Below the pieces are notes generated by a model that made no database searches, had not been told where the DNA came from, and was given only the letters and a program-made list of their open reading frames with translations. Of a stretch of DNA of 21,253 nucleotides, positions 2,926 through 13,402 are shown one piece after another (within the stretch, counting starts at the first letter, position 1; each line of letters opens with the position of its first letter). The translations under genes and the position numbers were made by a program. Source of the DNA: a virus; the IMG/VR virus record IMGVR_UViG_3300030104_002037, positions 1 to 21,253 of that record, one strand, 5' to 3'.

Positions 2926-3287
2926 TAGGTACACTACTTACTTCAGTTACTTCATTAGCTTCTTCATATCTTGAGGGTAAGACTGCTATTCAAAAAGCAG
3001 AAGCCCAGATAAAAATGAAAGAAGCTACTGGAGAAATTGACTGGGATTTGGCGGCAATGAGAGCTAGTCAATCTTCATGGAAAGATGAATGGTTGACTAT
3101 ACTTTTTTCTATACCTCTGATATTATGTTTCTGTGGCGAGTGGGGTAGGCAGATAGTAACTGACGGCTTCCTTGCTCTCTCTGGAATGCCGACTTGGTAT
3201 CAGGTAAGTTTGGGCAGTATTGTTGCGGCATCATTCGCCACACGAAGTGCTAAGAAATTTTTTAATCCAGTAGGTAAAAAGAAATGA
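2922..3287 (+). CDS. Holin, 3TM gene-transfer-release type (PF11351-like)
   Basis: A 121-residue protein starting at GTG that overlaps the previous stop. A soluble helix with KAEAQIKMKEATGEIDWD precedes the phrase SSWKDEWLTILFSIPLILCF, then WGRQIVTDGFLALSGMPTWYQ and a second hydrophobic segment VSLGSIVAASFATRS, and a basic tail. The order 'kDEw..ll.siP', a weakly hydrophobic middle and 'P.WYq..lg.ivaasfg' is that of the 3TM holin family first described for gene transfer agents. It lies just before the endolysin, whose start overlaps its stop. This is the better holin candidate of the two in the cassette. Confidence 0.75.
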   Translation: MIGTLLTSVTSLASSYLEGKTAIQKAEAQIKMKEATGEIDWDLAAMRASQSSWKDEWLTILFSIPLILCFCGEWGRQIVTDGFLALSGMPTWYQVSLGSIVAASFATRSAKKFFNPVGKKK

Positions 3288-10576: not shown

Positions 10577-10625
10577 TGCAACTTTCTCCCTTTACTCTGC
10601 GTTACTACTGGAACACCCACTTACG

Positions 10626-10733
10626 AGGATAAATCAAGATGACATCAGCCCACGGCTGACGTACATCTTTGACTACGAGCGTATCCACTCGCAGACAAAG
10701 ATGTTCTGGAGAGTGACTAGCACCCTCCAGAAT
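10626..10733 (-). pseudogene. Shrunken remnant of a second terminase small-subunit gene (inverted)
   Basis: Read on the minus strand, this stretch matches the terminase small-subunit gene (11776-12150) in a series of colinear blocks. CTAGCACCCTCCAGAAT (10717-10733) matches the leader at 11759-11774. TACGAGCGTATCCAC (10674-10688) is 15/15 with 11821-11835, ACGGCTGACGTA (10652-10663) 12/12 with 11985-11996, TGACATCAGCC (10640-10650) 11/11 with 12117-12127, and AGGATAAATCAA (10626-10637) 12/12 with 12137-12148. The start codon and most of the gene are gone, leaving about 110 of 390 bases. The remnant folds into three hairpins and directly follows the intact 134-residue gene. Confidence 0.8.
10638..10732 (-). 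ncRNA. Three consecutive hairpins in the terminase remnant
   Basis: TCAGCC/GGCTGA (10645-10650, 10654-10659, loop of 3); ACATCTTTG/CAAAGATGT (10663-10671, 10696-10704) enclosing CGAG/CTCG (10676-10679, 10688-10691); and TTCTGGAG/CTCCAGAA (10704-10711, 10725-10732) extended by GTG/CAC. Such an array in a decayed gene may have been kept for a role in cis or as a small RNA; expression is not shown. It could also end transcription from the gene upstream. Confidence 0.35.
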
Positions 10734-10742
10734 TGGTTGACT

Positions 10743-11147
10743 TTACTTCGGGCTAAGAGGTTGTCTGTTAAACCTACTAGCGTACTCATTAAAGTCTGAG
10801 TTCGTAGAGACTGGGCGTGGTTTCTTCTTACCATGAACATATTCTTCGCCTGACTCTTTCTTGTAGATTTCCTTTGCCGAATCGAGAAGAGCTTTCAGGT
10901 CTGCTACTGTATCTGCCTTCTCTGCCCTGCGAGTGAAGAGTTGTTCAATCCTCATTGACGCTTCACCTGCCTCTATGCAACGCTCTTCTTCCTGAAGTAA
11001 ATCGGATTCAACTTTGTCATGCTGTTCTTGGAAGAACGCAAGTTTAGTGTGAAATCCATAACAGATTGACTCTACAGTTCGGATTCGACCCCAAGGGTCT
11101 CGAACGGAATTTGCAAGAGTTTCGATTGTTTTTGTAAGATTGGGCAT
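10743..11147 (-). CDS. Hypothetical protein, intact copy of the inverted duplication
   Basis: A 134-residue protein of unknown function. The middle is charged and helical, likely coiled coil (FQEQHDKVESDLLQEEERCI, EAGEASMRIEQLFTRRAEKA, DTVADLKALLDSAKEIYKK), and the last 25 residues are polar and perhaps disordered. AAAGGAGGG six bases before the ATG is a strong ribosome site. A decayed copy lies inverted at 11335-11753, ahead of the terminase gene, so this protein's ancestor was probably a neighbour of the terminase small subunit and may have a packaging or early regulatory role. Codon use is less AT-rich than in nearby early genes. Confidence 0.75.
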   Translation of the reverse strand: MPNLTKTIETLANSVRDPWGRIRTVESICYGFHTKLAFFQEQHDKVESDLLQEEERCIEAGEASMRIEQLFTRRAEKADTVADLKALLDSAKEIYKKESGEEYVHGKKKPRPVSTNSDFNEYASRFNRQPLSPK

Positions 11148-11337
11148 GATGCCCTCCTTTCTTTGCTGTTAAATTGTGAACACCAATAGCACGAGAAGAT
11201 AAAACCAAGTCCATAAGAATTGCGGAGGGTCCGCTCGCTCTTGCTTGCGAGTGGAAGCCGTCATTCTTGTTGACATGGTTTTGCTCGTGCTATGGTGGGG
11301 AGCAATTTGACAACTGCAAAGGAAGGAAGGTAGCGTG
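11148..11337. repeat. Palindromic centre of the inverted duplication; divergent control region
   Basis: Read outward from the centre, both arms run ATTCTT, GAC-TGGTTTT, CTCGTGCTAT, GGTG, CAATTT, ACA, AAAG and a ribosome site, then a start codon. The left arm is 11220 down to 11145, the right arm 11262 to 11337. The left arm leads into the 134-residue gene; the right arm leads into its decayed copy. Between them lies CTCGC/GCGAG pairing (around 11234-11252). This is where minus- and plus-strand transcription part, so promoters in both directions are expected. Confidence 0.75.
11270..11296 (+). promoter_or_regulatory. Candidate promoter for the late (plus-strand) genes
   Basis: A perfect TTGACA (11270-11275) is followed after 15 bases by TATGGT (11291-11296) with an extended TGC just before it. 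The spacing is short, which the extended -10 may offset. The matching place in the left arm (minus strand, near 11214-11183) keeps TGCTATTGG but has a poorer -35. Sequence-based guess only. Confidence 0.35.
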
Positions 11338-11753
11338 ACCTGTCTTGCACAAAACATGAGGAACTCGCAGTCAAATTTCGTTCGTGACGCTTGGGCTTAC
11401 AGTCGAATTACCTTCCGAACTACTGGTAGATGTCATCTGTTATGGGTTTCGCACTAAAGTTGCATGCTGTTCTTCCACAGCATGGCAAAGGTGAAGCTGA
11501 TTTGCTACTTTCAGGAAAAGAGTGGGGTTTAGAGGTAGGTGGAGCGTCATCTACCATGAGGATTGAATCTCTCCAGAACCGCAGGTCAGATAAGGCTACA
11601 GTAGTAGACCTGATGCTCTGATTCGGCAAAGGGAATCTGCAGGAGAGATTCAGGCATATTTCATGGTAAGATGATACCTCCACAGTCTCCGTACTCAACT
11701 TTATGGGCGTTAGTAGGATTAACACCTTGACATGCCTCTTTGAACGAGCGTAA
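11335..11753 (+). pseudogene. Decayed copy of the 134-residue gene (frameshifts and a premature stop)
   Basis: This plus-strand stretch aligns end to end with the gene at 10743-11147 read on the minus strand. GTG 11335 aligns with its ATG, NFVRDAW with NSVRDPW, and after a frameshift near 11425-11430 the frame from 11430 reads MGFALKL..QHGKGEADLL..MRIESLQNRRSDKATVVDL, against YGFHTKL..QHDKVESDLL..MRIEQLFTRRAEKADTVADL. A short deletion then makes a premature TGA at 11619-11621, although the DNA match continues (GATTCGGCAAAGG at 11620-11632 equals 10871-10883 reversed, 13/13). TAA 11751-11753 aligns with the intact gene's stop. A 63-residue piece (11430-11621) is still open and might be translated. 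Confidence 0.8.
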
Positions 11754-11759
11754 AGTCCA

Positions 11760-11786
11760 TTCTGGAGGTGCTAGCATGAACCAGAA
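11760..11786 (+). promoter_or_regulatory. Stem-loop enclosing the terminase small-subunit ribosome site and start codon
   Basis: TTCTGG (11760-11765) pairs with CCAGAA (11781-11786), looping out the rest of the GGAGG site and ATG 11776; TGCTAGCA in the loop is itself palindromic. The fold could limit translation or bind the terminase itself. The same place in the inverted remnant forms a longer hairpin (10704-10732). Confidence 0.45.
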
Positions 11787-12150
11787 CAACAGAAGTTTGA
11801 CAGACAAACAGGTGGCATTAGTGGATACGCTCGTATCAAAGGCATGCACGATTAAAGAAGCCTCTCAGATTGCAGGATATGCAAATGGTGAAAGTGGTAG
11901 AGTCAGTGCCAGTAAGGCTTTGAAGCAACCACATGTACAGAGTTACCTCCTGCAATCTGTGGCTAATTCTTTAAGCATGCATGCTACGTCAGCCGTACAA
12001 AAGATAGTTTCCTTGTCAGGTACTGCCAGAAGTGAATACGTACAGCTAGAGGCCAGTAAGGACATCCTTGATAGGGTTGGCTTGAAGAGTCCTGACAAGC
12101 AAGTCCATCTTCATACGGCTGATGTCAAGGTTTCGATTGATTTATCCTGA
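11776..12150 (+). CDS. terS: Terminase small subunit
   Basis: A 124-residue protein that recognises the packaging site and delivers phage DNA to the large subunit. Residues about 10-55 give the expected DNA-binding domain (LTDKQVALVDTLVSKACTIK, EASQIAGYANGESGRVSASK, ALKQPHVQSYL), the helix-turn-helix with a following 'a.k.l..p.vq.yl' signature of the family. The C-terminal part (AVQKIVSLSGTARSEYVQLE, ASKDILDRVGL) is the helical oligomerisation region. The start is ATG 11776, with GGAGG seven bases upstream; a longer frame from TTG 11740 has no support. A hairpin covers its start, another its stop, and a shrunken inverted copy lies at 10626-10733. Confidence 0.85.
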   Translation: MNQNNRSLTDKQVALVDTLVSKACTIKEASQIAGYANGESGRVSASKALKQPHVQSYLLQSVANSLSMHATSAVQKIVSLSGTARSEYVQLEASKDILDRVGLKSPDKQVHLHTADVKVSIDLS

Positions 12151-12194
12151 ATGGCATGACTAGGCATGGGGGGTCAAAACTTGTCATGCCATTC
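12149..12194 (+). terminator. Perfect 12-bp stem-loop overlapping the terS stop codon
   Basis: GAATGGCATGAC (12149-12160) and GTCATGCCATTC (12183-12194) are perfectly complementary, with a 22-base loop containing GGGGGG. The first arm overlaps the TGA of the terminase small-subunit gene. No U-run follows. It may be a transcript-end or processing signal, or a protein-binding site used in packaging. Confidence 0.5.
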
Positions 12195-12409: not shown

Positions 12410-13402
12410 ATGGCGAGTAAGAATCTTAGAAGTCTATTGAATAGTTTAGACGTACAAGCAAAGAATGACATCATAAGTATATCCCCAAGTATTAGCCAAC
12501 CCTTAGGTGGTGGTAATAAAGCTAAAGGTCAGCTAGGTGGTTCTGAAGGACCGAATGTTGGTTTTGCATTTATTTCCATATTTGGAAAAGTGTTTAAAAC
12601 TAAGTCAAAGAACATACCTATATTCAACAAAATGTTTGGTAGTAAAAATGTTAAGAACATGAACATTGATACTAAGAAGACAAACATTAAGCCTGAGACT
12701 ATTACACCTCGCAGTGTGCTTACTGCTGTTAAGAAAACAAAAGGTGTGAAAGATGTTGCACCTAAAGGTAAAGGTGGTAAATCTGTAGAAGCAATAGCAA
12801 AAAGAAAAGCTAAAAAGGGCGAAGGCAAATCTCGAAGAGTTAAAGTTTCTGACGCTAAGAAGAACCGAAGAGATAGAATGAGTCCTGATGCGAAAGCCGC
12901 AGGTGCTATCGGTTCTGCAGGATTAAGTGCCGCTATTATTGCGGCAGGCGACCAAAGCAAGAAGCGTAAGAAAAGTAAAATACCAAGACCTCCTTCCTCA
13001 ACTGGTGTACAAGACAGGACTCCTATAGCTAAAGACAAGACACCTTCATCTGATGCAGGAACTAGAGGACTTCCAACTGGTGCAAAGCAAAGGGCTGTAG
13101 ATAAAATGGATGTAGCTTCTAAACGAAGAAGGCTACAGAAAAGACCTGCTCCGTCTAATAGGATGGCACCTCCAACTGGTAGAGGTGGAGACAAGCCTTT
13201 AGATAAAGCTAGGTCTGGAACACAGACTTTTGGTACTTTTAAGGAGGCGTTTAGATATTACAACAATCTTCCTAGTGGAAAGAAACCTGCAACATTTACT
13301 TACAAGGGAAAGAGTTATGCAAATGTAACTAAAGACCAAGTAAAGAAAGCAGGGTTTAAAACTTTAAGAGCGTATCTTAATGCACAGAAGAAAAAGAAAT
13401 AA
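12410..13402 (+). CDS. Large basic, mostly disordered protein between the terminase genes
   Basis: A 330-residue protein with very many Lys, Arg, Gly and Pro residues. The first 100 residues are mixed, with a more ordered patch (NVGFAFISIFGKVF). From about 110 to 270 it is low-complexity and strongly basic (KGKGGKSVEAIAKRKAKKGE, SKKRKKSKIPRPPSSTGVQD, RRLQKRPAPSNRMAPPTGRG), broken by one Ala-rich helix (AAGAIGSAGLSAAIIAAG, about 163-180). The last 60 residues look folded (FGTFKEAFRYYNNLPSGKKP, ATFTYKGKSYANVTKDQVKK). It may be a DNA-binding virion or packaging protein; the family is not recognised. AAGGAGCAAGC precedes the start. Confidence 0.75.
   Translation: MASKNLRSLLNSLDVQAKNDIISISPSISQPLGGGNKAKGQLGGSEGPNVGFAFISIFGKVFKTKSKNIPIFNKMFGSKNVKNMNIDTKKTNIKPETITPRSVLTAVKKTKGVKDVAPKGKGGKSVEAIAKRKAKKGEGKSRRVKVSDAKKNRRDRMSPDAKAAGAIGSAGLSAAIIAAGDQSKKRKKSKIPRPPSSTGVQDRTPIAKDKTPSSDAGTRGLPTGAKQRAVDKMDVASKRRRLQKRPAPSNRMAPPTGRGGDKPLDKARSGTQTFGTFKEAFRYYNNLPSGKKPATFTYKGKSYANVTKDQVKKAGFKTLRAYLNAQKKKK

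Follow-up and report, generated by a model that had tools for sequence, protein, structure and literature searches.

In plants, MIR genes are born by inverted duplication of their target gene, which leaves an inverted, imperfect gene copy and a long hairpin antisense to that gene, and in phage phi29 a compact packaging RNA of about 174 nt provides an example of a phage RNA linked to packaging. Phages and prophages also encode the large ornate noncoding RNAs GOLLD and ROOL (PMC12286853), which are very long structured elements recognised by covariation and of unknown function; they are multi-branched, contain pseudoknots, are conserved in sequence and lie near tRNA islands. Hairpins derived from template switching have been described in RNA genes, where the helices are short (Monttinen and Loytynoja, 2022; PMC8794818), and in this case inverted copying yields stems whose pairing is kept through multi-base compensatory changes. 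Obelisks, which have been reported from the ocean (PMC11922315), viroid-like RNAs and hepatitis delta virus are circular RNA replicons that form a self-complementary rod of about 1 kb with an ORF in one arm.

The phage locus described here shares features with each of these systems. Like GOLLD and ROOL it is very long and recognised by covariation; however, its rod is unbranched, overlaps a protein gene and stands before the gene for the terminase small subunit (terS). It has no Rfam match and its fold is not multi-branched: an Rfam 15 scan of the window (the whole stretch of 21,253 nt that was analysed) returned nothing at 10600-12160 and two sub-threshold hits elsewhere. As in template-switch hairpins, long stems are kept paired by compensatory changes of several bases, but here the arms measure about 540 nt, and a complete protein gene lies within them. 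In contrast to Obelisks, viroid-like RNAs and hepatitis delta virus, the rod is encoded in dsDNA phage genomes, including that of a cultured phage, and it differs from plant MIR genes in that it belongs to a bacterial virus, where there is no Dicer/Argonaute pathway, and in that its arms are maintained rather than decaying. With the phi29 packaging RNA it may have in common a link to packaging, yet it is several times longer. As far as tested, the element has the defining features of neither GOLLD/ROOL nor viroid-like RNAs. A literature search of open papers (subscription journals were outside its scope) found no such element described, and on sequence analysis and this search we rate the rod as an apparently new kind of element.

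The window is marine phage DNA (IMG/VR record IMGVR_UViG_3300030104_002037, positions 1 to 21,253) and contains strong inverted repeats at one place only, 10702-11788, which matches its own reverse complement with 71% identity over 1087 bases (E 4.8e-122). The features of the region are as follows.

10703-11238, plus strand: left arm of the hairpin, from the MFE fold, the pair table and the self reverse-complement match; antisense to p134.
11239-11246, plus strand: apical loop of the hairpin, 8 nt, with the closing stem CCGCTCGC/GCGAGTGG.
11247-11787, plus strand: right arm of the hairpin, from the fold and the pair table.
10743-11147, minus strand: p134, an intact gene of 134 aa in the early direction, an ORF with the SD AAAGGAGG, wholly within the left arm.
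11335-11753, plus strand: broken inverted copy of p134, from alignments and ORFs, running from a GTG start-like to a stop-like position, frame not kept.
11776-12150, plus strand: terS, terminase small subunit (phrog_2538, E 1e-11).
10627-10689, minus strand: collinear terS remnant (chain score 72, shuffle maximum 43).
11270-11296, plus strand: promoter-like TTGACA-N15-TATGGT, a consensus match only, right of the apex and with suboptimal spacing.
11727-11756, plus strand: TTGACA-N18-TAAAGT, probably the late promoter of terS; it falls within the outer end of the right arm.
12149-12194, plus strand: hairpin directly 3' of terS with 15-nt arms, 93% (repeat I9).

An earlier note on this DNA had described two homologous, inverted arms that are collinear through the promoter-like region, p134 and a terS remnant, and this description holds: the match between the aligned arms is far above chance, and the four exact blocks that it quoted are present. 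The left p134 is intact and has a strong SD, and the right copy is indeed broken; the right arm retains the promoter-like region, the SD and the start region, but no p134 frame is open throughout, the longest sense ORFs being 40 and 63 aa. The left terS remnant, about 65-110 nt, is likewise real, since its chain score with terS exceeds the maximum from 500 shuffles; it now folds as two small hairpins (10643-10663 and 10663-10704), the second of which has three pairs with double changes that preserve pairing in the related contig L004. The promoter-like sequence at 11270-11296 is kept in L004 and in a closer relative, L003, and a TTGACA box stands at the place of the terS promoter in most relatives.

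The self-complementary structure extends well past the gene homology. In L003 (3860-3920 and 5530-5600; the same is seen in L004) inverted similarity runs on past terS, and in both contigs GGGGGGTCAAAA...ACCGCC 3' of terS mirrors GGCGGT...TTTTAACCCCCC left of p134. Many relatives have a double poly-G, GGGGGGGAACACAAGGGGGGG, between the TTGACA box and the terS start (e.g. L076, just before 2336), instead of which the window has a single GGGGGGTCAAAA after terS (GGGGGG near 12168). Between terS and terL the window encodes a basic protein of 330 aa (12410-13402); PHROGs give no match to it, and even among close relatives its conservation is poor.

On the strand of terS, the plus strand, the predicted fold of the region is a single rod of about 440 bp that does not branch, with arms of about 540 nt each and 468 pairs in total. 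Its MFE is -650 kcal/mol, with a z of about -32 relative to 12 dinucleotide shuffles, compared with an MFE of -535 and a z of -27 for the minus strand. In the window group each rod has a predicted 24-33 G.U pairs. The apex usually consists of a loop of 3-8 nt on a perfect closing stem, in the window and in most relatives, as in a hairpin formed in cis rather than in two RNAs that pair in trans. Pairs enclosing terS, which appear in whole-region folds, were rejected as a further part of the structure, being background-like outside the window group.

Two further viral contigs share the structure over 1.5 kb, L003 with 95.6% and L004/L005 with 87% identity. This bears on the possibility, raised by the earlier note, that a molecule was joined to its own complement: inverted duplications are a familiar artefact of amplification, but the arms are only about 71% identical, with their differences compensated, and the same structure recurs in samples independent of one another as well as in a cultured phage, so that a chimera or assembly artefact can be ruled out for practical purposes. 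Arms that had evolved separately would each stay close to their orthologue and grow less like their partner, yet the left arm of L004 is 70% like its own right arm and 62% like the right arm of the window, hence the arms co-evolve. When the window fold was imposed on the window, L003 and L004, 37 pairs had changed on both sides and were still paired, as opposed to 13.5+-3.0 with shuffled and 0-7 with slid partners, and 96.9% of cells were paired, as opposed to 39-42% with partners slid. L004 has 40 joint changes where 8.7 are expected, and a contiguous double change of six pairs occupies columns 413-418 of this alignment. When a p134 profile built from three sequences was used to look for further close relatives of the window, it returned L003 and L004 alone.

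In a second cluster of 13 contigs (12 distinct phage sequences), the lower stem is 99.3% paired and its changes are mostly G.U-compatible; 10 cells have double changes, against 4.8+-1.5 shuffled and 0-2 slid. The apical tip in this cluster (L104-L117; A8 alignment columns about 164-385) has been swapped wholesale, while the lower stem is near-invariant, and both exchanged tips are self-complementary and unrelated to each other. Covariation is weaker in other clusters, with whole 960-nt folds. Simple mutational decay after duplication is excluded by the covariation, and a diversity-generating template/variable repeat was rejected in view of the inverted orientation of the copies and of differences that affect all bases.

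The mismatches between the arms are also biased by strand. Among isolated mismatches in strand-neutral arm alignments of 25 representative loci, the plus strand has 213 G.T and 36 A.C, where composition predicts 142 G.T of 249 (p 5e-22), and the bias has both an A/G and a C/T component. It is small in the cultured phage Hodr (G.T 4, A.C 2), in which the minus strand folds equally well as the plus strand, and in L092 (9 vs 6). Synonymous divergence in the p134 family is 0.289 inside the rod and 0.647 outside, comparable related phages being used, and in the window group the pS of p134 is 0.085 and 0.19 as against 0.24 and 0.35 for terL. Covariation beyond shuffled and slid controls and one-strand tolerance of G.U, with a strand preference that is weak in Hodr and L092, are properties that a structured RNA would be expected to have.

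A process acting on DNA alone, by quasi-palindrome template switching or gene conversion and with no selected fold, would have to account for the mismatch bias by strand-asymmetric deamination, with C-to-T and A-to-G changes where the plus strand is exposed. The six-pair double changes at columns 413-418 and the co-changed blocks at the terS 3' end do look like copying, template switching is known to make and keep hairpins (PMC8794818), and the phage encodes a YqaJ/RecE-like exonuclease, which makes long single-stranded DNA plausible. Some of the excess of G.T could come from deamination biased by strand, but neither the synonymous constraint inside the rod nor the near-invariant lower stem with its 99.3% paired cells could arise in this way; furthermore, the bias has its A/G component, the position of the rod is fixed and its association with p134 is family-wide, and pure mutation would not preserve a rod of 100-470 bp at the same site across so many lineages. 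We therefore regard a DNA process on its own as unlikely, although worth keeping in mind.

The region is instead probably a selected, self-folding and nearly unbranched element of the plus strand, which would form a module with p134 at the junction between early p134 and late terS. If the plus single strand is what is selected, the selected molecule is probably RNA. The early/late junction beside terS is a usual place for replication and packaging sites, and the element lies there, between early and late genes, so a signal made of single-stranded plus-strand DNA, for example for replication or packaging, has to be considered; G.T is the best-tolerated mismatch in DNA too, and no promoter was found for a plus transcript. 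Known single-strand signals are, however, far shorter, the length of the rod varies from about 100 to 525 bp, and G.T in DNA is much costlier than G.U in RNA, yet there are 24-33 per rod in the window group. A DNA signal accordingly has a rather small probability, a little below that of the DNA process discussed above.

Rods are widespread at this position. Among 64 loci with enough sequence upstream of terS, which share ancestry so that the counts are not independent, 43 have a rod just upstream of terS (42 of them with 96 pairs or more on one strand, and L009 by depth), while 44 control windows taken from the same contigs all stay below 90 pairs. Rod size ranges from about 100 to 470 pairs, with 525 in the MAG-binned L092 and L094, and the apex lies about 100-180 nt upstream of the start codon of the divergent gene. 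The cultured Pelagibacter phage EXVC031P Hodr bears a rod (z -18); in the isolates HTVC033P, VA-RY-3, Pmp11 and Mwe-JY08, which have a related terL, none was found upstream of terS. In relatives the rod usually covers the 5' part only of the p134-family gene, and in the window group, L010, L046 and L009 it reaches or just passes the stop codon. The left rod end coincides with an apparent intrinsic terminator hairpin of the p134-family gene in L010 (about 720-750), L046 (about 3250-3275) and L009 (about 770-800).

A p134-family profile matches 42 of the 43 loci with a rod and none of the 21 without (42/1/0/21), and the exception, L012, has an SD-led gene of 161 aa in the same place; the profile was built from rod-bearing loci and ancestry is shared, so the association is suggestive and not a count of independent events. 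Five MAG-binned phage contigs bear rods, each together with a divergent gene that is SD-led and 131-168 aa long; three relatives that lack this gene have no rod. Contigs of the family (L091-L094; PBGS01000047, PAJN01000046, NZYO01000030, PAAM01000029) are found in MAGs labelled Euryarchaeota, Gammaproteobacteria and Rhodobiaceae, labels so different that host assignment by binning is unreliable here.

The p134 family in relatives has a dN/dS of mostly 0.1-0.3, which indicates a real gene under purifying selection, whereas the p134 of the window group is fast-evolving (dN/dS 0.3 to 0.76), and protein constraint there is uncertain. The AlphaFold model of p134 is a helical hairpin (pLDDT 84). No robust match to p134 was obtained in Pfam or PHROGs, and none under E 0.001 when the model was compared with PDB folds; its best match among viral models is an uncharacterised phage protein (E 1e-4).

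The earlier note had proposed that a p134-terS tandem was duplicated inversely, that each arm then lost one gene, and that p134 was thereby moved from the late to the early direction. The arms are collinear from the promoter-like region through p134 to the terS remnant, and an inverted copying event is upheld, but the rest of this history fares badly. The ancestor it predicts, with p134 before terS on the same strand and no inverted copy, was seen in none of the 64 relatives, as a p134-family HMM gave 43 hits on the early strand and 0 on the terS strand in regions upstream of terS; p134 has therefore probably always been divergent. Reciprocal loss implies independent decay, yet the arms co-vary, remain paired, are G.T-biased and are synonymously constrained, which identifies the right arm as a pairing partner rather than a relic. 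Rods without a full p134 duplication are, moreover, the common state in relatives, and we consider the proposed history highly improbable.

Under the reading of a selected plus-strand element, the arms would be kept alike by two forces, namely copying between the arms during replication, by template switching, and purifying selection on pairing. Copying is favoured by the contiguous multi-base double changes together with the terS 3'-end block: every phage bears, in the remnant of its left arm, a mirror image of its own terS 3' end (in the window, for instance, TTGATTTATCCT), for which copying is the best explanation. Hairpins are known to be both created and maintained by template switching (PMC8794818). 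On the simplest view, a pre-existing rod was lengthened in both directions by inverted copying from arm to arm, which would have placed a copy of p134 on the right and a copy of terS on the left; neither copy has to code for a protein. Whether these rods represent a new class of giant phage rod RNAs, in which a kilobase plus-strand hairpin and a p134-family protein form a two-part module with antisense overlap, shaped by inter-arm copying and selection for pairing, we judge an even call from the comparisons made here.

Regarding function, only a tentative proposal can be made from sequence. A transcript across the junction would be antisense to the start of p134 and would lock itself into the rod, and it may thereby shut off p134 expression and insulate the early/late transcription boundary or process it through RNase III. 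We favour a plus-strand RNA that would place a duplex at this boundary as a silencer or processing site for p134, or a structural RNA on which p134 acts, a proposal that we hold with low confidence, well below that in the element itself; a trans-acting structural RNA handled by the p134 protein is as possible as a role in shut-off or at the boundary. Since the promoter-like sequence of terS lies inside the outer right arm, a terS transcript started there would not contain the rod, and transcription of a rod RNA would have to begin at a promoter lying more to the left; a promoter-consensus search left of the rod gave no convincing plus-strand candidate.

If it is transcribed, the rod would be among the longest uninterrupted natural hairpins known to us in a bacterial system, unannotated in current RNA databases, and its makers would be marine phages, one of which infects Pelagibacter in culture. 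It offers a natural case of a long stem that is made and kept by copying and selection while one arm encodes a protein, and it cautions that an inverted gene copy beside a broken one need not be a decaying relic. Should the reading as a giant rod RNA prove true, a single DNA segment of these phages would serve as a protein gene, as an arm of a structural RNA and as the boundary between early and late transcription.
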